Under the pieces are notes generated by a model. The model ran no database searches, was not told the origin of the DNA, and saw only the letters and a list, made by a program, of their open reading frames with translations. This document shows, piece by piece, positions 40,594 through 54,519 of a stretch of 64,000 nt of DNA. Both the position numbers and the translations under genes were made by a program. Each line of letters begins with the position of its first letter. Within the stretch, counting starts at the first letter, position 1. Source of the stretch: Bacteroidota bacterium (lineage in GTDB: Bacteria > Bacteroidota > Rhodothermia > JANXDC01); NCBI GenBank assembly GCA_025059945.1, contig JANXDC010000009.1, forward strand, positions 1 through 64,000, written 5' to 3'.

Positions 40594-40659
40594 CAAGAAA
40601 ACGTGACCTTTTAGGCGGCAGACGATAACTTACCCGAGCCAGTAAAGAAAGGAGTGCGC

Positions 40660-42792
40660 ATGCGCACCTCGTGGTGGATTCCGTTAAGTAGTGTAGCTCT
40701 GCTGGCAGGATGCGCCGGTATACGCCCTCTGCAGACGCCCTTCGGGGTCTCAGCGCCAAGCTTTTTAGAGGACACCGTAAGGGCCGGACGCTTCGATACG
40801 GGCAAGATGTGGACTTTTGAGCATCCGCCCGTGGAGTATTTCGCCCAAACCTACGGCTTTCGCCCCACGGAGGAGTGGCTACAGCGGGTGCGGCTTGCGG
40901 CGCTGCGCTTTGCCACGTACTGCTCGGCCTCCTTTGTATCGCCCGATGGGCTGGTGATGACCAACCACCACTGCGCCCGGGATGCGGCCGCCGCCGTGTC
41001 CCGCGCGGGCGAAAACCTCGTCGAGACGGGCTTTTACGCCCAAACCCTTGAGGAGGAGCGCCGCGTGCCGAATCTGTTCGTAGACCAACTGGTGTTCATC
41101 GAGGACGTGACCGCGCGCGTGCAGCGTGCCATGGTGGAGGCCCGCACCGATGCGGAGCGCTTGCAACGTCGGGACGCCGAGATCCGCTCCATCGAAGAGG
41201 AATACCGGCGTCGCACGGGCCTGGAGATCCAAGTGGTCGCGCTCTACAACGGAGGCCGTTTTTCGGTCTACGGCTACAAACGCTACACAGACGTGCGCTT
41301 GGTCTTTTTGCCGGAACTCGCCCTGGGCTATTTCGGAGGGGATCCCGATAACTTCACCTACCCGCGATACGCTTTCGACTGCGCTTTCTTCCGCGTCTAC
41401 GATGAACAAGGCCGCCCCCTGCGCACGGAGCACTTCTTCCGCTTCAACCCCCGTGGCCCCGCCGAGGGAGAGGTCGTGTTCGTGGTCGGCAATCCGGGCC
41501 GCACTAGCCGGCTCAACACCGTGGCGCAGCTGGAGTTTCGGCGCGACCTGCAGCTTCCGTACACCCTGGAGTACCTCAAGCGCCGCTCCGCTATCCTGCA
41601 GGCGCACCTGCGCAGCCTGCCGGGCGGGGATCCGGAGCTGGAAAACCAGATCTTCTCCATAGAGAACACGATCAAAGCCTTCACGGGCCAACTGCGCGGG
41701 CTGCGCGATCCCCATCTTATGAGCCGCAAACGGGCCTTTGAGCGGGATTTCCGACGCGCTGTGGCCGCCCGGCCCGATCTTGCGCCCCGTTACGGGCGGA
41801 TTTGGGACGAGATTGCGCAGCTGCGAGCCGAGCTGCGGCGCTACTACCCGGATCTGTTTCTTTTTCAACCTCAAGGGCTGGGTCGCAGCCAGGCGCTTGC
41901 GCTCGCACAGGCCCTCATCGGATACGCCAACCAGGTTCAAAACAACACGAGCGTCGCCGAGCTTGAGGGCCGGCGCAACCGCATCCGCAACTGGCCCGAT
42001 CCGGCCAATTCGGAACTGGAAGCTCGTTTCCTGGGCGCCCATCTGGAGGAGGCGCGCCGCATCCTGGGCCCGCAAGATCCCTACGTGCGGGCTGCGCTTC
42101 GAGGCCGGGGGCCAGAGGAGGCGGCCCGCGCCCTGCTGCGAGAAAGCCGCCTCTTTGATCGGGCCTTTCGGGAGCGCCTTTTGGCTGAGGGCCCCCAGGC
42201 CATAGCCGCCTCCCAAGATCCCCTCTTGGTTCTGGCCCGCATCGCCGAGCCCCGGTTTCGCCGGGCTCAGGAGGCCAACCAGCGGCTAAGCGCGCGCGAG
42301 CAGCTCTTGGTGGGCGAGCTTGCCCAGGCGCTTTTTGCAATTTACGGAACGCAGATCCCCCCGGATGCCACCTTTACCCTGCGCCTGGCCGACGGAGTGG
42401 TGCGAGGCTATCCGTATAACGGCACAATAGCCCCCTACAAGACGACCTTCTACGGCCTCTACGATCGCTTCCGGTCCTTTGACCGCAAATCCCCGTGGGC
42501 GCTTCCGGAGCGCTGGCAAAACCCCCCTCCGGAGTTCGACCTGGGCACCCCGCTTAACTTCGTCTCCACAAACGACATTATCGGGGGCAACTCCGGAAGC
42601 CCCGTCATCAACCGACAGGCCGAGCTCGTGGGGCTGATTTTCGATGGCAACATCGAAAGCCTGCCCGGCGACTTCCTCTACACCGAAGAGACAAGCCGGG
42701 CCATCTCCGTGCACGCCGGGGGCATCCTGGAGGCCCTGCGGCACATTTACAGAGCCGAACGCCTGGTGCGCGAACTGCTAGGAGCGCGCTGA
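40660..42792 (+). CDS. S46 family dipeptidyl-peptidase (DPP7/DPP11-like) lipoprotein
   Basis: An exported serine peptidase that removes dipeptides from N-termini. The N-terminus has a lipobox (SSVALLAGC). The chymotrypsin-like half includes the catalytic-His region DGLVMTNHHCARDA (His103/104) and the nucleophile Ser645 in NDIIGGNSGSPVI; the helical insert lies between. At 710 residues it matches DPP7/DPP11. The C-terminal segment reads SRAISVHAGGILEAL where the known enzymes have a DIRY-type stretch, so specificity should not be assumed. AAAGGAG precedes the ATG at 40660. The M1 peptidase follows 44 bases later. Confidence 0.92.
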   Translation: MRTSWWIPLSSVALLAGCAGIRPLQTPFGVSAPSFLEDTVRAGRFDTGKMWTFEHPPVEYFAQTYGFRPTEEWLQRVRLAALRFATYCSASFVSPDGLVMTNHHCARDAAAAVSRAGENLVETGFYAQTLEEERRVPNLFVDQLVFIEDVTARVQRAMVEARTDAERLQRRDAEIRSIEEEYRRRTGLEIQVVALYNGGRFSVYGYKRYTDVRLVFLPELALGYFGGDPDNFTYPRYAFDCAFFRVYDEQGRPLRTEHFFRFNPRGPAEGEVVFVVGNPGRTSRLNTVAQLEFRRDLQLPYTLEYLKRRSAILQAHLRSLPGGDPELENQIFSIENTIKAFTGQLRGLRDPHLMSRKRAFERDFRRAVAARPDLAPRYGRIWDEIAQLRAELRRYYPDLFLFQPQGLGRSQALALAQALIGYANQVQNNTSVAELEGRRNRIRNWPDPANSELEARFLGAHLEEARRILGPQDPYVRAALRGRGPEEAARALLRESRLFDRAFRERLLAEGPQAIAASQDPLLVLARIAEPRFRRAQEANQRLSAREQLLVGELAQALFAIYGTQIPPDATFTLRLADGVVRGYPYNGTIAPYKTTFYGLYDRFRSFDRKSPWALPERWQNPPPEFDLGTPLNFVSTNDIIGGNSGSPVINRQAELVGLIFDGNIESLPGDFLYTEETSRAISVHAGGILEALRHIYRAERLVRELLGAR

Positions 42793-42836
42793 GGTTGCAC
42801 CCATGGAGCCCTTCCCCTGGCAAGAGGAGATCGATC

Positions 42837-44756
42837 ATGAACCGATCCGCTGTTGTGCTGCTTTTGTGGAGCTGCGCCGGGGTGCTTCAAGCCCAGCCTG
42901 TGGCTCGCTTTGCCCCGCTTCCCTGGCCCGAACCCAACGCGATGCGCACCGCCACGGGCGCACCGGGACCCGCGTACTGGCAACAGCGGGCCGATTACTG
43001 GATTCAGGCTACGCTGGACACGGTTCGACACCGGCTCGAAGGGCGACAGCGGATCCGCTACACCAACTACGCCCCAGAGCCGCTTGAGCACCTGTGGCTG
43101 CAGCTGGATCAGAACCTCTTTCGCTCCGGAAGCCGAGGCGCCCGGCTCAACCCGGAGGGCCGCTGGAGCGGGGCCTTCTCCGAAGGAGGGTTCGAGATCC
43201 GGTCCGTCGTGCTCTCCCAAGAGGGCCGTCGCCAAGCGGCCCGGTACGCAATAGAGGACACGCGCATGCGCATCGAGCTGGACAGGCCCGTTCCGGCTCG
43301 CGGCGGCGTGATCGATATCGAACTGGAGTGGGCCTTTACGATACCCGAATACGGGGCCGACCGCATGGGCCGCACGCGCTTCCGGAAGGGCTGGCTGTAT
43401 GCGATCGCCCAATGGTATCCGCGCATGTGCGTCTACGACGACATCCGGGGCTGGAACGCGCTTCCCTACCTGGGGCAGGGGGAGTTCTACCTGAGCTACG
43501 GGGACTTCTACGTGGAGCTGACCGTGCCCCGGGAGCTGATCGTGGTGGCCACCGGGGAGCTCCTCAACCCAGAAGAGGTGCTCACGGCGCAGCAGCGCGA
43601 AAGGCTCCAGCGGGCCCGCCGGAGCGCCCAACCTGTCATGATCGTCTCGCGCGCCGAAGCCGGGCGCCCGGATGCGCGGCCGCCTGGACGCAGCCCCTTG
43701 ACGTGGCGTTTTCGCGCCCAAAACGTGCGGGATTTCGCCTGGGCCGCCTCCCGGGCCTTTCTTTGGGATGCGGCTAGCTGGGAAGACGTGCTCCTCATGT
43801 CCGTATACCCCGAAGAGGGGCTCGGCCCGGATTCCTTGGGCCAACCCGGCTGGGAGCGATCGACGGAGTACCTGCGGCACACGATCCGGTTCTATTCGGA
43901 AACGTACTACCGCTATCCCTACCCCGTGGCCATCAACGTGGCTGGACCCGTGGGCGGCATGGAATATCCCATGATCGTTTTCTGCGGAGTGTTCGCCCGA
44001 GGACAGGCCCTCTTCGGGGTCACGGATCATGAGTTCGGGCACACCTGGTTCCCCATGATTGTGGGCTCCGATGAGCGCCGCCACGTATGGATGGATGAGG
44101 GGCTCAATACGTTCATCAACCACTACTCGAATTTAGCCTACTACGGCCAGCAGGCCCGCCGTCTGGCTCAGCTGCACCCGGATACTGTGGCCAAACGCAT
44201 GCAGGAGCCCTGGCATCGCTACCCGATCATGACGGCCCCGGATCTGCTGCCTACGCGCGCCCTGGGTTTTCTGGGGTATCGCAAGCCGGCCTTCGGCCTT
44301 CTTTTGCTGCGCGAGTACATCGTGGGCCCGGAGCGCTTCGATCGCGCCTTTCGGGCCTACATCGCCCGGTGGGCCTTCAAGCATCCGCAACCGGTGGACT
44401 TCTTCCGCACCCTAGAGGACGTCGCCGGTGAGGACTTGGCCTGGTTCTGGCGCGGATGGTTTTACACGGCCGAGCTGTTTGATCAGGCCATAGACTCGGT
44501 GCGCGCCGAGCCCGGGCTTACGCGCGTGTACCTATCCAACCGCCAGGGGCTTGTACTGCCGACTACGCTGGAGCTGGAATTCGCCGACGGCAGCCGGGAG
44601 CGCATCCGGCTGCCCGTGGAGATCTGGGCGCATCAGGACCGCTATAGCTACGCGCTGCGCGATCCCCGTGCGGTGCGACGCGCGCGTATCGACCCGGACG
44701 GGCAGCTGCCGGATATCGACCGCTCTAACGACCTCTGGCCCCGAGCAAGCCGATAA
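42837..44756 (+). CDS. Exported M1 family zinc metallopeptidase
   Basis: A gluzincin aminopeptidase-like protein of 639 residues with a signal peptide (VVLLLWSCAGVLQAQ). The zinc site HEFGH starts at residue 398, with the third ligand Glu 19 residues after the second His (WMDEGLNTF). The exopeptidase motif GAMEN is represented by GGMEYPM, a variant common in the Bacteroidota M1 subgroup. AGAGGAG precedes the ATG at 42837; an in-frame ATG at 42795 has none and lacks a signal. Together with the S46 enzyme it could degrade peptides in the periplasm or outside. Confidence 0.92.
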   Translation: MNRSAVVLLLWSCAGVLQAQPVARFAPLPWPEPNAMRTATGAPGPAYWQQRADYWIQATLDTVRHRLEGRQRIRYTNYAPEPLEHLWLQLDQNLFRSGSRGARLNPEGRWSGAFSEGGFEIRSVVLSQEGRRQAARYAIEDTRMRIELDRPVPARGGVIDIELEWAFTIPEYGADRMGRTRFRKGWLYAIAQWYPRMCVYDDIRGWNALPYLGQGEFYLSYGDFYVELTVPRELIVVATGELLNPEEVLTAQQRERLQRARRSAQPVMIVSRAEAGRPDARPPGRSPLTWRFRAQNVRDFAWAASRAFLWDAASWEDVLLMSVYPEEGLGPDSLGQPGWERSTEYLRHTIRFYSETYYRYPYPVAINVAGPVGGMEYPMIVFCGVFARGQALFGVTDHEFGHTWFPMIVGSDERRHVWMDEGLNTFINHYSNLAYYGQQARRLAQLHPDTVAKRMQEPWHRYPIMTAPDLLPTRALGFLGYRKPAFGLLLLREYIVGPERFDRAFRAYIARWAFKHPQPVDFFRTLEDVAGEDLAWFWRGWFYTAELFDQAIDSVRAEPGLTRVYLSNRQGLVLPTTLELEFADGSRERIRLPVEIWAHQDRYSYALRDPRAVRRARIDPDGQLPDIDRSNDLWPRASR

Positions 44757-45383: not shown

Positions 45384-46763
45384 GTGCAACAGCACAGACA
45401 GCCCGTCCCGCAAGTCGAAGAGATCGTGGCGCTTGTAGAGGGGATTTTAAAAGGCCAAGGCTCCCTTGTGGAGGGCTTTTTCCTGCAATACCCCGAATGG
45501 CGGAGCCCGTGGGCGTCCTTTCTGAGCAAATGGGCCTCCTGGCCGGGGTGGCTTGTGCGCGCCATGGACAACAACGTGGAGCGCATCCGCAACCTGGCCG
45601 AGCTGCAGCAGGCCGCCTCCCAGTTCCGGGGTCGGTTTCTGGCGGACACAGATCAGCTCAACGCGCTGGCCGCGGCTACAGAACAAATGACGGCCACAAG
45701 CCGCAACATCGCCGAGCACATCGCCCACATGGCCGAAGAGGCGGAGGAGACTAGCCAAGAGATCCAGAAAATATTCGGTCTCATGCAAGGCGTCTTCAGC
45801 GCGATGGGCCAGGTACGGGAGTCCATCGAGCTTATGGCTGAGACGATCCAGCATTTTATGCGCAGCATGCAAACCATCTCAGGTCTCACCCGCACGGTAA
45901 ACGACATCGCCCGCCAGACGAACTTGCTGGCCCTCAATGCCGCCATAGAGGCGGCGCGCGCCGGCGAGCATGGCCGGGGCTTTGCCGTGGTGGCCGATGA
46001 GGTGCGCAAGCTAGCCGAGAAATCCGCTCAGGCCGCGCACGAAATCAACGACACGGCCCTGGAACTGGAACGGCATTCGGCTCAAGTGGACGCGCGCCTA
46101 ACAGAAGGGCTAAGGGCGCTTGAGGAAAGTCAGAAGAAAATCGCCGTCCTTAGCACCGCGTTCTCTAGGGCTCAGCAGACGGCCGAGACCACCGTCACGG
46201 GTGCGGCGCATATCCGGATGGCGATCCAGGAGCTGGAGCAGGCCATCGAGCAAGCCTCCCGCAACGCCGTAGAGCTTTTCTCAAGCCAATCGGCCAACGT
46301 GGAGACGCTCGATTCCATGCTGAGCGTTTTGGATCAAATAGCGCGGCTTGGACAGGAATCCGTGGCGTTGTTTGCGGAATGGCCCTCCGATACGCTGCTT
46401 GTTACGATCGCCAAGGCCGATCACGTCATTTGGGTGCAGCGCGTAAACGACGCCCTGCTGGGCAAGATCTCCATCCGTGGCTCCGAGCTTGCGGACCATC
46501 GTAGCTGCCGACTGGGCAAATGGTATTACAGCCGCGGCATGGAGCTATTGGGGCATGTGCAGCAGTTCCGGGATTTCGAAGCGCTCCACGCTGAGGTGCA
46601 CCGCACAGGCCGCCAGATCGTAGAGGCGATCCAGGAGGGCCGACCGGAGGAGGCGCTCCGTCAGGCGCGTCGCCTCAATGAGCTGCGGGACCGCGTACTA
46701 GAGGCGCTTACCCAGATGCGCGAGCTGTTGGCAAGGGAACACCTACCTCAAAACGGACGGTAA
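45384..46763 (+). CDS. Soluble methyl-accepting chemotaxis-type receptor with CZB zinc domain
   Basis: A 459-residue receptor with no transmembrane helix. The signalling domain has the MCP hairpin tip [20 protein letters not shown] and [15 protein letters not shown]. The C-terminal chemoreceptor zinc-binding (CZB) domain has predicted ligands H347 (KADHVIW), C375 (SCRLGKWYY), H402 and H406 (LHAEVHRTG). The GTG start at 45384 is used because AAGGAGG lies 8 bases upstream. The first ~90 residues match no domain I know. No other chemotaxis genes are in the window. It probably senses a cytoplasmic signal such as zinc or an oxidant, by family analogy. Confidence 0.92.
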
Positions 46764-46821: not shown

Positions 46822-48117
46822 TTAAAAGGCGCGTCGGCGGTATTCCTCCCACAGCTGAGTGTGACGGCTCACCAGGGGCACTAGCCAGCCGTTGATGAAG
46901 AGGTATCGCACCTGAGTGCGCAGCTCCAGCGGGTCGCCGTCGGTGACGATGAGCGTCGCATCTTTACCCACCTCTAGGGAGCCCATCCGATCGGCCACCC
47001 CCCAAATCTGGGCCGGATAGAGCGTAATGGCTTTAAGGGCCTCTTCCTTGGGCAGACCAAAGGCTGCGGCCATACCCGCATGATGGGCCAGGTTGCGGGC
47101 GTTGTAGTAATCGAAGGTGCCGATGGCGATCTTCACCCCCGCCTTGGCCAAGGCGGCGGCGTTCGCGTAGGCGCGATCGTAACGATCATAGGGCCGCGTG
47201 GGCAGGGCCAGCACGGGCCCCACGATACAGGGGATACCCGACTGCGCTAGGCTGTCGGCCACGCGCCAGCCCTCGGCCACGCCGGCGAAAATCGCCTTGA
47301 TCTTGCGCTCTCGCACCCAGCGAATCGCGGCCAGAATATCGCGCTCCGCGTTCACGTTGATCAGAAACGGCAGCTCACCCCGCACCACGGGCCGCAGGGC
47401 CTCTAGACGCTGATCCCACAGGGGGGGCTCGCCGGAGCGGTTGCGCTCGTACGCCTCCCAAGCCCGGTTGTAGGCCACGGCTTTCTGCCAGAGTTCGTTG
47501 AGTTGCCGCAGCTGCTGTTCGTATTGGCGGCGGCGCTCCTCTTCGCTTTGCTGCTGAAAGAGCGAACGACGACCCACAGAGGGAAAATTCATCACCACGC
47601 CCACGGAGGGGCGTACGGCCATTTGCTCCGGTGTGTATCCATGTAGGTTAATCAGCGTGGCCTGCCCAGATAGCAACCCCCCCGTGGGGGCCGAAATCAC
47701 GGTCGTGACCCCAGCCACACGGGTAACGGGTATGTGGGTGCTGGCCGGATTGATGGCCGTAAGGGCCAGCATGTGGGGGTTGTAGGCGCCCACTTCGCTT
47801 TCGTCGCGGGTCTCCGGAATCTGACCGATCTCGATCAGCCCCACCTGCGTGTAGCTGTTGATGAGCCCGGGGTAGATGCTCAAGCCGGAGCAGTCGAGCA
47901 CCTCCGCCCCCTGCGGAATGGTTACGTTGGGGCCTACGGCGGCGATCTTGCCGTTTTGGATAAGCAGCGTACCGCGTTCGATCACGCCTCCGGAGACGGT
48001 TACGATGCGTGCGTTGGTGAGCGCAAACGTCCCCGTACGAGAAGGGGGGATGCCTTGGCCCCAGGCGCCCGCTGAGAATCCAAGCACAACCCCCACGCAC
48101 AAAAGCCTTCGCATCAT
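46822..48117 (-). CDS. Amidohydrolase-fold protein lacking metal ligands (third gene of trio)
   Basis: The 431-residue exported protein (signal MMRRLLCVGVVLGFSAGAWG) has the composite-domain fold of imidazolonepropionase-like amidohydrolases: PGLI near residue 83 and SLEVGKDATLIVTDGDPLEL near the C-terminus. The metal HxH that follows PGLIDxHxH is replaced: residues 87-91 read NSYTQ. The later His positions are also missing (INVNAERD for the HxH-bearing strand, FAGVAEG for the next). It is probably not a metal hydrolase. It overlaps the middle gene by four bases (ATGA), so they are co-expressed and may form a complex. The pseudoenzyme reading is an inference. Confidence 0.85.
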   Translation of the reverse strand: MMRRLLCVGVVLGFSAGAWGQGIPPSRTGTFALTNARIVTVSGGVIERGTLLIQNGKIAAVGPNVTIPQGAEVLDCSGLSIYPGLINSYTQVGLIEIGQIPETRDESEVGAYNPHMLALTAINPASTHIPVTRVAGVTTVISAPTGGLLSGQATLINLHGYTPEQMAVRPSVGVVMNFPSVGRRSLFQQQSEEERRRQYEQQLRQLNELWQKAVAYNRAWEAYERNRSGEPPLWDQRLEALRPVVRGELPFLINVNAERDILAAIRWVRERKIKAIFAGVAEGWRVADSLAQSGIPCIVGPVLALPTRPYDRYDRAYANAAALAKAGVKIAIGTFDYYNARNLAHHAGMAAAFGLPKEEALKAITLYPAQIWGVADRMGSLEVGKDATLIVTDGDPLELRTQVRYLFINGWLVPLVSRHTQLWEEYRRRAF

Positions 48118-49571
48118 GGCCGATCCTCCTTGTGGGCCATCATCTCCTCTACGAGCTCGTACAGGTCAACTCCCCCCATCCAGGCGCCCTCGTGCGCCTC
48201 GGCCCCCAGCATGCAGCGGTCGTAGTCGGCGGGGTTGAACTGCACGTAGGCGTCCTCCAGGGACTCGTCAGGGTCGATAGCCAAGCGCATATCATCTGGA
48301 TCCTTGCTGCGATCGAAGCGCACGACCCCATCGACCAGCGTCATCTCGCAGACCGCATACACGGACAGGGGATGGGCGCTGAAGATGGCCAGATCGGCGT
48401 CCTTACCGACCTCGATGGAGCCGATCCGGTGATCGAGGCCGATTTGCTTGGCGGGGTTGAGGGTGATCATGGCCAGGGCCGCATCCTCGGGCACGCCGCC
48501 GTAACGGACGGCCTTGGCGGCCTCATGATAGAGGCGCCGCACCAGCTCGTCGGAGTCGGAGTTCAGCGACACGTTCACCCCGTATTGATGCATGATGGCC
48601 GCATTATACGGGGTGGCGTAGTAGACCTCGAACTTGTAAGCCCACCAATCCGAGAAGGTCGAGGCCATCGCGCCAAACTCAGCTAGCTCCTTAGCGACCT
48701 TGTAGCCTTCGAGCACGTGCTGAAAGACGAGCCGCTTGATGCCGAAGTCGCGGAAGACCCGCAGCACCATCAGAATCTCATCGGCCCTATAAGAGTGGCA
48801 ATGCACGATGACCTCCCCGCGCAGGATGGCGGCTAGCGTCTCCAGGCGTTCGTCTTTGCGGGGGGCGATGGGCTCAGGCCCTCGACGGCGGCTGCGCTCC
48901 CAAGCCTGCCGGGCGCGCTCATAGACCTCCCATTCGGCCATGTACCGGCGGGCCATCTCGAAGGCTTTGCGCATGACCTGCTCTACGCCCATGCGCGTAG
49001 CGGGGGTCACGTTCTCGCGACCGCCGCCGAATTGCCCTTGGCTGGCCCGGCCGTGCACGCGCGTGGGGTTTTCACCCAAGGCGAACTTGATCGTGCGCGG
49101 GGCATCCTGCAGGATCATACGCTCTACGGGCTCCCCGTAGCGAAGCTTCATCGTCACGGGCTGGCCGCCGATGACGTTCGCCGAACCGTGCATGGAATGG
49201 ATCGTGGTCACCCCGCCGGCCAGAGCCCGGTAGATGTTGACTTCGTAGGGGTTGACCACGTCGCGGATGCGCACCTCGGCCGTAACGGGGTTTGTGGCCT
49301 CGTTGACGTTGTCGATCGCCATGTGCGAGTGCGCATCGATGATACCGGGCATGACGAACTTGCCCCTTGCGTCGATCACCTGAGCTCCGGGGGGCGCCGT
49401 CAGGTTGGGCCCGATCTGCGCGATCTTGCCGTCGCGGATGAGGATATCCGTATTCGGCAGCGTGCCCCGCGTTACGGTGAGCACGGTGCCACCTCGGATG
49501 AGCACAACGTTTTGGCCGTCGGCGCTGAGGGCCGCGATCCAAAAGACCAGGATAAACCCCATGCGTCTCAT
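48114..49571 (-). CDS. Amidohydrolase (imidazolonepropionase-like), apparently active (middle gene of trio)
   Basis: A 485-residue exported metal-dependent hydrolase of unknown substrate. Signal MRRMGFILVFWIAALSADG. The first metal motif is H81-S-H83 in PGIIDAHSHMAID. Further ligands appear in VIVHCHSYRADE, LVFQHVLEGYK and NVSLNSDSDE (acidic residue). The C-terminal composite domain ends in SIEVGKDADLAIFSAHPLSV. AGGAGGT precedes the ATG. It lies between two relatives that lack these residues. Imidazolonepropionase or prolidase-like activity is possible; nothing nearby indicates the substrate. Confidence 0.88.
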   Translation of the reverse strand: MRRMGFILVFWIAALSADGQNVVLIRGGTVLTVTRGTLPNTDILIRDGKIAQIGPNLTAPPGAQVIDARGKFVMPGIIDAHSHMAIDNVNEATNPVTAEVRIRDVVNPYEVNIYRALAGGVTTIHSMHGSANVIGGQPVTMKLRYGEPVERMILQDAPRTIKFALGENPTRVHGRASQGQFGGGRENVTPATRMGVEQVMRKAFEMARRYMAEWEVYERARQAWERSRRRGPEPIAPRKDERLETLAAILRGEVIVHCHSYRADEILMVLRVFRDFGIKRLVFQHVLEGYKVAKELAEFGAMASTFSDWWAYKFEVYYATPYNAAIMHQYGVNVSLNSDSDELVRRLYHEAAKAVRYGGVPEDAALAMITLNPAKQIGLDHRIGSIEVGKDADLAIFSAHPLSVYAVCEMTLVDGVVRFDRSKDPDDMRLAIDPDESLEDAYVQFNPADYDRCMLGAEAHEGAWMGGVDLYELVEEMMAHKEDRP

Positions 49572-49586
49572 GCTCTGGACCTCCTC

Positions 49587-51356
49587 TTAATTCGGAATCC
49601 GCCGGGCTGACCATTGTCCGCTACCGCCTCCAGGTACGGGGAAGCTACCCGCTATGATGTCCCCCGAAACGGTACCCCGCATGGGGAAGGCGAATTGCTG
49701 GCCCTGAAACGAGATGGCCATCTCCAAGACGACCTCCGATCCGGAAACCCGCCCCCCCAGAAGGCTCACCTCAATGGGGGCGTTTACGGAAATCCGCCCC
49801 GTAAGGCTGGAACCATTCTGCTCCAGCTCTAAACGGCCCTGCAGGGCCCCTTGCGGACTCTCGATGACGAGCGACCAGGCCCCCTGCAGGTTCGCCGTCT
49901 CCCCGGCCGCAGGCCGAGCCGCGGCCGGTGGACGCGCTCCTGGCCCGGCCGGAGCGGGACGCGCCTCTACGGAGAAGCGTTCGCCGGCTACGAAGACATA
50001 CCGCACCTGCGCATCGCGATCGAAATAATCGCCCCGCGTTACGACCAAGTTGGCGATTTTGCCGGGCTCTAGAGAACCCAACTGCCGCTCCACGCCATAG
50101 ATACGGGCCGCATTCAGCGTAAGGGCCCGAAGCACGGCCTCCTTAGAAGCGCCCGCCTCCACGAGTCGTCGGAGGTTGGTGCGGATCTGCGCCGGCTCCA
50201 CGTTGGCCGTAGCCAGCGCCACGGGTAGATCGGAGTTCAGCAACTGCGCGTAAGCCTCTAGGCGCGCCTTGCGAGCCTGCTCTTGACGATCCAGCAGCCG
50301 CCGCATCTCTTCAGAGGCGCGCCGCCGGCGCTCCTGGGCCGCCCGAGAGGTATCGGCCTCCCGCGGCAGGCGCAGCGACAGTGCCACGGGCACGCGAGCC
50401 GTCCGGAGCCGGTCCAAGACCAAATCGGGCTGCTCTACGCCCGTAAGCACGATGCGCCAACCCACCTCTTGCGCCAGGTTAAGGGCGCGCCAAACCGAGC
50501 GGGCATCTGGAGCCTCAAATAACACGGGAACTTGGCCTTTATAAACCGGAATGAGCGCCTCGCGGACCGGATCCCGAACCGGTTTGGGGCGACCGTTAGG
50601 ATCGCGCTCGTAGGCGGCTAGCAGGGCATCCAGATAGCGCGCATCATGCCCTAGTTGACGGATCATGGCCATCACGGCCATGGTGGTGCCGGGATAGACG
50701 CCGCGAGCGGACTGAAATTGCGCAAACACCCCCACTTCCGGTTTAAGGGCTAGCGCTTCGGCCTCATACCCCCAAGGGGGCATGCCCACAAAGGGGCGAT
50801 CCCGGTCCGGTACGCTCCCCAACAAGAGCAAGCTGGCCTTGCCGGCCAGAAAACCCTCGCGAGAGGTTACGACGGCCGCCGTAAAACCGGCCTCGCGCCA
50901 GGTCCGAACCGAGGCGTCGGCGGGCTGAAACTCCTCCAGGGCCAGGCGCGTCGGCCGAAGCCCCATCTGCTCCGGGGTGGGGTCACCGGAGAAAACCCGC
51001 GGCTGCGCGCCCGCCGTCGGGGGACGTGCCCCGGCTGCCTGGGCCGACCCGGCCGGCTGAGATCGGGGAATGCCCACAAACGAGCGCCCGTCGATGAAGC
51101 CCGGATACACGGTAAGCCCCCCTCCATCGATCGTGTCGGCGTCGGCGGGCACGGTGACGTTCGGCCCCACGGCCAAGATAAGCCCGTCGCGGATCACGAT
51201 CGTGCCGCGCGGGATTTCAGGTCCCGAGACGGGCACGATGCGGGCGTTTACGATGGCCAGCGTGCGCGTGCCCGGACCCGGGTTTTGGGCTCTGGCGGGC
51301 CAGGCGCAGAAGGCCACTCCCCAGAGCCCACACAAAATCGTTAACGCCTTTTGCAT
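49587..51356 (-). CDS. Amidohydrolase-fold protein lacking metal ligands, with C-terminal beta domain (first gene of trio)
   Basis: The 589-residue exported protein (signal LTILCGLWGVAFCAWPARAQ) has an amidohydrolase fold, but the metal HxH is replaced: PGFIDGRSF at residues 85-93, with Arg91 and Phe93 for the two His. The later segments also lack His (VPVLFEAPDA; IVLTGVEQPD). The composite domain is retained (SLEPGKIANLVVTRGDYF). Unlike its neighbours it has a C-terminal extra domain of about 90 residues with beta strands (WSLVIESPQGALQGRLELE; GSFPVPGGGSGQWSARR). It is 15 bases upstream of the active member. A structural or regulatory role is inferred. Confidence 0.83.
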   Translation of the reverse strand: MQKALTILCGLWGVAFCAWPARAQNPGPGTRTLAIVNARIVPVSGPEIPRGTIVIRDGLILAVGPNVTVPADADTIDGGGLTVYPGFIDGRSFVGIPRSQPAGSAQAAGARPPTAGAQPRVFSGDPTPEQMGLRPTRLALEEFQPADASVRTWREAGFTAAVVTSREGFLAGKASLLLLGSVPDRDRPFVGMPPWGYEAEALALKPEVGVFAQFQSARGVYPGTTMAVMAMIRQLGHDARYLDALLAAYERDPNGRPKPVRDPVREALIPVYKGQVPVLFEAPDARSVWRALNLAQEVGWRIVLTGVEQPDLVLDRLRTARVPVALSLRLPREADTSRAAQERRRRASEEMRRLLDRQEQARKARLEAYAQLLNSDLPVALATANVEPAQIRTNLRRLVEAGASKEAVLRALTLNAARIYGVERQLGSLEPGKIANLVVTRGDYFDRDAQVRYVFVAGERFSVEARPAPAGPGARPPAAARPAAGETANLQGAWSLVIESPQGALQGRLELEQNGSSLTGRISVNAPIEVSLLGGRVSGSEVVLEMAISFQGQQFAFPMRGTVSGDIIAGSFPVPGGGSGQWSARRIPN

Positions 51357-52222: not shown

Positions 52223-52696
52223 TCAGAACAAGTACAGCCGCGCCCCCAGCCCGCCGGTCATGTCCAGCGCCGTAGCGGGCCAGAGGGCGAATTTGGGGCT
52301 GAAGTGCATGTAGAACTCTATGCGTCCGATGAACAGCGCCATCCCCCCGGTACCGCTCAGGCCCCAGCGGTCCGCATGACCGCGCTGGGCGTCGGACTCA
52401 AAGCGCCCATAGCCCCCTAGGCCGGCGTAATAGACGATGCGCCCCGGCACTTCGGTAAGCCGCTGGGCCAGCCAATGTTGGCTTGCGTGCGCTTCCATGA
52501 AGAAGTACTTGTCCAGACGCCAAGCCATGAGCCCCTCAAGGGCGTAGCGTCGGCTCAAAAACTGCTTAGCCGTAAGCCCTGTAACGGGCCCTAGCTGTAG
52601 GCCCACGCCTAAAGGTCCCCCCACAACAGGCTGAGCCCATGCGGACGAGGCTAGGGCCATAGAACACAATAGCAAGATGGGCATTCGCTTCCTCAT
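52223..52696 (-). CDS. Small exported protein, probable outer-membrane beta-barrel
   Basis: I do not recognise the family. The 157-residue protein starts with a signal peptide (ILLLCSMALASSAWAQ). The mature part has amphipathic strands rich in Gly and aromatics (GLGGYGRFESD, MALFIGRIEFYMHFSPKFAL) and ends GGLGARLYLF with a terminal Phe, typical of outer-membrane barrels. The ATG at 52696 has CAGGAGGT upstream and overlaps the presumed TGA of the broken HAD gene (ATGA). The frame runs open far upstream without a stop, but that part is the HAD gene read in a shifted frame. Confidence 0.72.
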   Translation of the reverse strand: MRKRMPILLLCSMALASSAWAQPVVGGPLGVGLQLGPVTGLTAKQFLSRRYALEGLMAWRLDKYFFMEAHASQHWLAQRLTEVPGRIVYYAGLGGYGRFESDAQRGHADRWGLSGTGGMALFIGRIEFYMHFSPKFALWPATALDMTGGLGARLYLF

Positions 52697-53345
52697 GATG
52701 CGACCTCCTGTAAGCTGCGCACCCCAAAGCCCGAGGAGGGGGCCACATGGTCCGCCGGCCGATCGGGCGAGGGGCTTGATGTCCGCTTCGCAACTATCGC
52801 CAATAAAAAGCACCTCCTGTGGCTGATAGCCCGTATGGATCAAGGCGTGCTCGAAAAGAGCCGGCTCGGACTTGCGCAGCCCAAGCTCCCGGGCGAAGAT
52901 CACCGGGGAGGCGGCCTGTAGTTCCAGGAGACGAAACAGCTTTGCCCGCTGAATCTCCGGGAACCCATAAGAGAGCAAACCGGCTGGCCAACGGCTGCAC
53001 ACAAATTGCCACGCCCTGCGAACGCCCGGCAGCCAGCGCCAATACACGGCGCATCGGCTTAAGGTAGTAAGCCTCCGGCTCGACCCAGCGCTCCGAATCC
53101 GCCCCCAGAAGAGCCAACCATAGACGGAAGCGCAACCGCCGTAAGGCCTGCGCCTCAAGCTCGCCCCGTCCGTAAGCGGCCCCCAGTGGAACGTTAAGAC
53201 GACGGTACAGCGAGCGCGCCCCTCGGGCCCGGGTGAGCTCTGGATAGGCCCAGCAGAGATCTCGGAGCGCACGGCGCTCAGCCCCTCTGTGATCCAGCAG
53301 CGTATCGTCGATGTCGCCGCAGACGAAGCGGATCGCAGGCCCCAT
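52693..53345 (-). pseudogene. HAD family hydrolase interrupted by two frameshifts
   Basis: A HAD phosphatase gene spread over three frames. From ATG 53345: FVCGDIDDTLLDH (motif I) up to RSQGVAIC. The homologous continuation is in the next frame: WPAGLLSYGFPEIQRAK through SPVIFARELGLRKSEPALFE to VLFIGDSCEADIKPLARSAG (motif IV). The normal ending is in the third frame: HVAPSSGFGVRSLQEVAS then TGA at 52693-52695, which overlaps the next gene's ATG. The changes lie near 52995-53005 (by a TGTGTG run on the minus strand) and near 52745-52760. It may be a real pseudogene or an artefact of two sequencing/assembly indels. Confidence 0.8.
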
Positions 53346-53346
53346 G

Positions 53347-54519
53347 TCACACGGGCATCTCGTAGAGGGCGTAGCGCTTGTAGGGCACCGCGCCCACCAT
53401 GCGGGCGGCTCGGTGCATCATCTCGTTTGTCTCCAAGACCCAACTCAACTCCGCATATCGGTAGCCGCGCCGCATCCCCTCGCGGATGGTATGGTAATGC
53501 ATGACCGCGTCGATGCCCCGACCCCGGTAGGCGGGCAGAACGCCCATAATGATCGTGCGAATCCCGCGGATTTTGCGAACGCGCGTATGCCACAGCAAAG
53601 TCACCAGGCCGCAGGGGAAAAGACGGCCGTTGCGCACATGCCGCAGGGCCTCGTTGAGGTTGGGAAGCGAAACGGAAAAACCTACAGGTTGGCCCTGGAG
53701 CTCGGCGATGAAGACGATGTGCGGATCGACGACCGCGCGCAAGCCCTGGGCCAGGTGTGCAAATTCCCGCTCCGTCATGGGCACAAAGCCCCAGTTTTCG
53801 CGCCAAGCCTCGTTGTAGATGTCGCGCACGGTTCGGGCCTCACGCTCAAAGTCTTTTAGGTTCACCTTGCGCACGCGCAGATCCGGCAGACGTCGATGCA
53901 CGAGCTCGACCCCGCGCTCTAGTTTGTCGGTCTGCACGGTCTGCACATCCACGTAGTAGGCGTACATGCCCATGACCTTGCGCAGACCAAAACGCTCCAA
54001 GAACTCGGCGTAGTAAGGCGGATTGTAGGGCATAAGCAGGGCCGGCGGGTGCTCGAAGCCCTCCAGGAGCACTCCAGCGGTGTCGTTAAGCGACGGGTTA
54101 ACCGGACCCCGCATGAGCAGCAGCTCGCGATCCCGCAGCCACTGTGCGGCCCGCTCCAAGAGCGCAGCCGCCACCTCGTAGTCTGGAATAACCTCAAAAA
54201 AGCCAAAGAAGCCCGTTCCGTCTTGGTGGACGGCCAGATGATTGCCGTTGCGGATGGCCGCGATGCGCCCGATCACGTGGCCATCGCGCTCGGCCAAAAA
54301 AAGGGCGATCTGGGAGTGCTCAAAAAACGGGTTGCGCGCCGGATCCAGTAGCCTGCGCTGCTCTATCCACAGGGGCGGCACCCAATTAGGCTCGCGCCGA
54401 TACAGCCGATACGGAAAGGCGATAAACCGCAGCCAATCCCGGCGCTCTTGGACTTGCAGGATCCGAAAGCCGGATTGTTGCGCCTCAGCCACGTCGGCCG
54501 TTGCGGTCGATGATCCCAT
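53347..54519 (-). CDS. Large GNAT-family acyltransferase, candidate bacterial ceramide synthase
   Basis: A 390-residue protein with a GNAT-like C-terminal half (IFIAELQGQPVGFSVSLPNL; TIIMGVLPAYRGRGIDAVMH, near residues 270-330) and an N-terminal half with NWVPPLWIEQRRLLDPARNP, FFGFFEVIPDYE and LLMPYNPPYYAEFLE. These features recall the GNAT proteins encoded with serine palmitoyltransferase in sphingolipid-making bacteria, among which the bacterial ceramide synthase was described in Caulobacter. Its ATG (54519) lies 35 bases inside the SPT gene in another frame, indicating coupled translation. The ceramide synthase role is inferred from context and length; an unrelated N-acyltransferase is the alternative. 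Confidence 0.7.
   Translation of the reverse strand: MGSSTATADVAEAQQSGFRILQVQERRDWLRFIAFPYRLYRREPNWVPPLWIEQRRLLDPARNPFFEHSQIALFLAERDGHVIGRIAAIRNGNHLAVHQDGTGFFGFFEVIPDYEVAAALLERAAQWLRDRELLLMRGPVNPSLNDTAGVLLEGFEHPPALLMPYNPPYYAEFLERFGLRKVMGMYAYYVDVQTVQTDKLERGVELVHRRLPDLRVRKVNLKDFEREARTVRDIYNEAWRENWGFVPMTEREFAHLAQGLRAVVDPHIVFIAELQGQPVGFSVSLPNLNEALRHVRNGRLFPCGLVTLLWHTRVRKIRGIRTIIMGVLPAYRGRGIDAVMHYHTIREGMRRGYRYAELSWVLETNEMMHRAARMVGAVPYKRYALYEMPV

Follow-up and report, generated by a model that had tools for sequence, protein, structure and literature searches.

What is the function of an exported amidohydrolase that is encoded together with two homologues lacking the metal ligands? This question is raised by three genes, here called A, B and C, that are stacked head-to-tail on the minus strand of a Bacteroidota contig. 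The window is the whole stretch of DNA analysed here, 64,000 nucleotides of contig JANXDC010000009.1. A first-pass annotation had described three exported amidohydrolase-fold genes with a 15-bp gap between the first two and a 4-bp ATGA overlap between the last two, and the coordinates, the profiles and the signal peptides agree with this description. Transcription runs from right to left, so that the "first" gene, A, is the one with the high coordinates. The parts of the locus are as follows.

51356-49587, minus strand: gene A, exported amidohydrolase-fold protein of 589 aa; predicted pseudoenzyme
51288..51356, minus strand: signal peptide of A (end approximate), from the sequence and a hydrophobic N-terminus in essentially all orthologues
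49596..49883, minus strand: C-terminal beta domain of A, approximately residues 492-587 (strands 492-586 in the AF2 model)
49572..49586, minus strand: intergenic gap between A and B, 15 bp
49571-48114, minus strand: gene B, exported amidohydrolase of 485 aa with a complete ligand set; predicted catalytic subunit
49515..49571, minus strand: signal peptide of B (end approximate), on the same evidence as for A
48114..48117, minus strand: overlap of the B stop codon and the C start codon (ATGA), 4 bp
48117-46822, minus strand: gene C, exported amidohydrolase-fold protein of 431 aa; predicted pseudoenzyme
48058..48117, minus strand: signal peptide of C (end approximate), on the same evidence as for A

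By a heuristic, a Sec-type signal peptide is present at the N-terminus of A, B and C and of essentially all of their orthologues. The ATGA overlap of B and C makes translational coupling of the two genes possible.

Family and fold of the three proteins

All three proteins belong to the amidohydrolase superfamily (PF01979/PF07969) by profile scores above the curated cut-off. The PF01979 (Amidohydro_1) scores are 46.9 bits for A, 72.0 for B and 40.7 for C, against a cut-off of 25. None of the three reached a named enzyme family of NCBIfam, such as HutI, NagA, dihydroorotase or hydantoinase; the best NCBIfam score of B is 90.9 against a cut-off of 391, and those of A and C are lower. A profile search thus labels all three genes merely "amidohydrolase", which masks two predicted pseudoenzymes.

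The closest sequence match in the PDB is the same for A, B and C, namely 3ooq, the Thermotoga maritima protein TM0814, to which B aligns over residues 23-421. The structure prediction proposed in the first-pass annotation was made for A and C with AF2. The single-chain models are confident (mean pLDDT of 84.9 for A and 87.8 for C), show the amidohydrolase fold, and have 3ooq as the top match with a TM-score, normalised to target length, of 0.83-0.86. A TIM barrel plus a beta-sandwich is therefore assigned to A and C by the AF2 models and to B by the sequence match to 3ooq. The imidazolonepropionase/prolidase-like proteins (COG1228) 3mtw, 3mkv and 3n2c share the superfamily and the two-domain fold, but their similarity to the trio is much weaker and they are single active enzymes.

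Loss of the metal ligands in A and C

The ligand pattern of the superfamily consists of His-x-His on strand 1, His on strands 5 and 6, and Asp on strand 8. The corresponding positions were taken from an alignment of A, B, C, TM0814 and a second locus described below. In B they are encoded by the following codons, which are listed with that of a lysine residue specific to the "live" proteins.

48555..49331, minus strand: all ligand codons of B, from H81 to D339
49329-49331, minus strand: H81
49323-49325, minus strand: H83
48795-48797, minus strand: H259
48717-48719, minus strand: H285
48633-48635, minus strand: K313 (live-only residue)
48555-48557, minus strand: D339

The assignment of the five B residues as putative metal ligands rests on the superfamily pattern and on their invariance; none of the 136 different B sequences lacks any of the five (HHHHD: H81, H83, H259, H285 and D339). 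The counterparts are R91, F93, E281, G306 and A384 in the A of the window, and Y89, Q91, N254, G279 and F335 in its C. The residues that had been named for the HxH positions in A (R91/F93), B (H81/H83) and C (Y89/Q91) are exact, and the claimed loss of the later ligands also holds, as E281/G306/A384 and N254/G279/F335 stand against H259/H285/D339 of B.

Are these losses conserved in the orthologous trios? In the alignment, at most two of the five ligands are found in any of 129 A sequences (79 have none) and in any of 128 C sequences (102 have none). The strand-6 His is present in 0/129 A and 0/128 C sequences. This ligand pattern of the trio recurs in every surveyed relative, far beyond chance, and a search of about 130 loci for trios with intact ligands, which would have contradicted the first-pass reading, found none. 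The ligand positions vary among the A and C orthologues, and single ligand-type residues survive sporadically; His occurs at position 93 in 44 of the 129 A sequences, and the A protein of one Christiangramia locus (L110) has His at both strand-1 positions and lacks the other three ligands. K313 follows the same division. Its conservation is 1.00 in B, and both TM0814 and the live protein of the second locus have Lys here as well; in a 69-row alignment, all live members have it and dead ones only sporadically. Judging from these sequences, A and C are almost certainly unable to catalyse the metal-dependent reaction of the family.

A metal site built from other residues was also sought. In A, no His, Cys or acidic residue is conserved at 90% or more. 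In C, no His or Cys reaches this level, but the acids E96, D105 and E108 are kept, so that C may have a re-purposed pocket. The near-invariant polar residues of C (E96, D105, E108, R133, R341 and N342), among which E108 aligns with the invariant E91 of B, indicate that parts of C are still tightly constrained. The three acids, as well as the sporadic ligand-type residues such as the His at position 93 of A, could be taken to mean that A, C or both are still enzymes that use a different metal site or metal-free chemistry. I regard this as very improbable, because neither protein has a His or Cys conserved at 90%, the ligand positions vary among orthologues, and the live-only K313 has been lost as well. 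Moreover, the GEN motif (residues 166-168 of B) is replaced in both the A and the C of the window, as judged by eye.

Distribution, co-occurrence and fusion

Is the trio common in Bacteroidota? It was found in relatives within the class of the window and in Roseithermus, Fulvivirga, Algoriphagus, Roseivirga, Christiangramia, Saprospiraceae and others across the phylum. In a scan of genome contigs with B, the best 80 matches all came from Bacteroidota or its neighbours. The order A-B-C is kept in essentially every locus with complete flanks (about 140 loci).

Co-occurrence was assessed in 297 Bacteroidota genomes (B at E<=1e-115 and C at E<=1e-70). B is present in 156 of them and C in 155 of those 156, while 141 have neither and none of the 297 has C without B. 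The only genome with B and without C at this threshold (G091) has just a weak C match. In at least 18 genomes, C lies away from A-B, on another contig or at a distance, and yet is retained; in one of these genomes (G092) C and A-B are about 967 kb apart on one contig, and in 5 of the unlinked cases the fetched A-B flanks contain no C. The location of C outside the operon was seen in several families.

A and B may also be joined. In a large branch, A and B are encoded as a single protein of about 1,000 aa, which has one signal peptide, and C is separate (L070, L071 and L152-L171). The order within the fusion is the dead A half, a segment resembling the extra C-terminal beta domain that A carries in the window, and the live B half. 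An A-B fusion was also found at L075 and L077, which are placed elsewhere in the B tree (FastTree; long branches present). As the fusions lie in two separate branches of this tree, A-B fusion has arisen at least twice. The inheritance of the three genes together is nearly without exception and sometimes extends to fusion, and it is therefore probable that the association of the inactive copies with B is a fixed one. A fixed hetero-complex is the favoured reading of the sequence data, on the grounds of the co-occurrence, the retention of C when unlinked, and the two A-B fusions.

Alternatively, A and C could be independent exported binding proteins that reuse the amidohydrolase pocket and act in the same pathway without a stable complex; they might, for example, capture the substrate or the product of B. 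The near invariance of the polar residues E96, D105, E108, R133 and N342 of C despite its ligand loss would suit such a function, as would the ability of C to live apart from A-B. On the other hand, the A-B fusions and the fixed gene order favour contact, and nothing in A points to a retained pocket, as it lacks any conserved acidic or His residue. The evolution of A is fast, with 24 invariant columns and an average identity of 40% per column; this fits a loose scaffold, but also an independent binding protein. In summary, I consider independent binding proteins unlikely, and a fixed hetero-complex is still preferred.

No neighbour of the trio is conserved; the commonest one occurs in just 22 loci. 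In the window, the genes of an S46 peptidase and, after it, an M1-type peptidase lie on the opposite strand to the trio (40654-44756, plus strand). These peptidases were considered as a clue to the pathway and were dismissed, because their association with the trio is not conserved. A signalling protein of the chemoreceptor type is encoded at 45384-46763 on the plus strand; it carries a CZB zinc-binding domain and has no evident sensor domain at its N-terminus. On the other side, at about 52223-53345 on the minus strand, a HAD-like frame seems to shift mid-way (ORFs 52794-53345 and 52223-53806) and to continue into the sequence of an exported protein, by a frameshift or an assembly error.

A second pair of live and dead genes

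The genome that carries the trio has another locus of this kind on a different contig (C11).

L001 4407-5711, contig C11: live member of the second pair (live D)
L001 5714-6934, contig C11: dead member of the second pair (dead D)

The two genes are adjacent; their pairing holds throughout the class and recurs in 20 of the 21 loci that were fetched. Live D has the HxH motif plus the later His and Asp. In dead D, the first HxH position is occupied by H or R and the second by V or T; the later ligand positions mostly carry T, G or S, and G. The second pair resembles the trio in having adjacent live and dead members of the same branch, but it has one dead partner instead of two and its clades are separate from those of A, B and C. 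Since this pair is also conserved, the combination of a live and a dead gene is a habit of the branch and not the oddity of a single operon. In one genome (G059), a single ORF (L191 3052-4278) resembles live D in its first part and dead D in its second; it has HxH without the later ligands, and may be the result of a deletion between tandem genes.

Origin of the dead lineage and selection

A, B, C, live D and dead D each form one clade. A, C and dead D together form another, with support of 100/97. Is this dead clade an artefact of the shared ligand loss? It keeps a support of 96/94 after removal of the columns around the ligands, and the artefact was therefore rejected, although long-branch effects are possible. 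The live/dead label requires one change on the 69-row tree. As all dead members fall into one clade, a single, ancient loss of the metal site is probable, as far as this tree can tell. An in-place triplication of B that gave rise to A and C, with A, B and C as a clade of their own, was rejected (AU p 0.001), and so were the groupings A+B and B+C in the AU test. A sister grouping of B and live D is tolerated by the AU test (p 0.126), but is not favoured by the data.

The dN/dS values in comparison with a congener, KatS3mg041, are 0.11 for A, 0.07 for B and 0.06 for C, while the genes of the second pair have values of 0.05 and 0.07; all are rough, because dS is near 1 and close to saturation. 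By these values, all copies appear clearly to be under purifying selection. A and C thus have the three marks of pseudoenzymes, that is, presence of the fold, loss of the ligands, and purifying selection. The head-to-tail arrangement alone might suggest that A and C are recent tandem duplicates decaying into pseudogenes. This idea was refuted, with hardly any probability left to it, by the phylum-wide retention, the intact frames, the omega values of 0.06-0.11, and the tree, in which the dead proteins form a single ancient clade and the A+B+C clade is rejected (AU p 0.001).

The simplest history would be that the metal site was lost in an ancient gene beside a live one, and that this dead lineage was then carried along with two live genes. 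Later, the dead gene would have been duplicated, so that a copy stands on each side of B.

A proposed complex and its relation to known systems

From these sequence comparisons, it seems fairly probable that A, B and C form an exported hetero-oligomer in which B is the catalytic subunit and the other two are pseudoenzymes. In this model, they would be the subunits of one periplasmic or surface-located assembly, B would be a metal-dependent hydrolase from that branch of the superfamily to which TM0814 belongs, and A and C would probably replace the identical subunits of an ancestral homo-oligomer. They may stabilise B, position it, tune it allosterically, or shape the entrance for the substrate. 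The physical A-B-C complex, its stoichiometry, the identity of the metal, the catalysis by B and the role of A and C are what I infer here. Related enzymes of the superfamily cleave small amides or peptides by hydrolysis, and so the best guess for the substrate of B, by analogy, is a small extracytoplasmic peptide or cyclic amide.

TM0814 shares the ligand set of B and the Lys at the position of K313. This uncharacterised, live protein differs from the trio in that its crystal entry holds a single type of chain, and no report of dead partners was found. A search of the available literature found no paper that names 3ooq or TM0814, and none that reports pseudoenzyme partners in the TM0814-like branch. 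A precedent for A and C is known from another system. The pseudo-dihydroorotase (pDHO) of the Pseudomonas class A2 ATCase is also an amidohydrolase-superfamily protein that has lost its zinc ligands, and it is an obligatory subunit needed for ATCase assembly and activity (PMC7053772). However, pDHO is the partner of an unrelated enzyme in the cytoplasm, whereas the trio, known here from its sequence, has two dead copies with a homologous live copy, all of them exported. Pseudoenzyme subunits are a known kind, and the homologous live partner, the two dead copies and the export are what differs here.

Significance

The chances seem evenly balanced that this is a Bacteroidota-wide exported system, in which the catalytic subunit works only as part of a fixed hetero-complex, together with pseudoenzymes homologous to it. 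The dead lineage would have arisen once, joined at least two different live enzymes and gained a second copy in one of these pairings, and the whole would represent an undescribed family of live/dead amidohydrolase complexes. Roughly half of the Bacteroidota genomes in the sample have the trio, which must be of importance to these bacteria. With one origin, two live partners and fusion to one of them, the dead lineage offers a natural series for the change from a homo-oligomer to a hetero-oligomer, and also for studying why pseudoenzymes persist.
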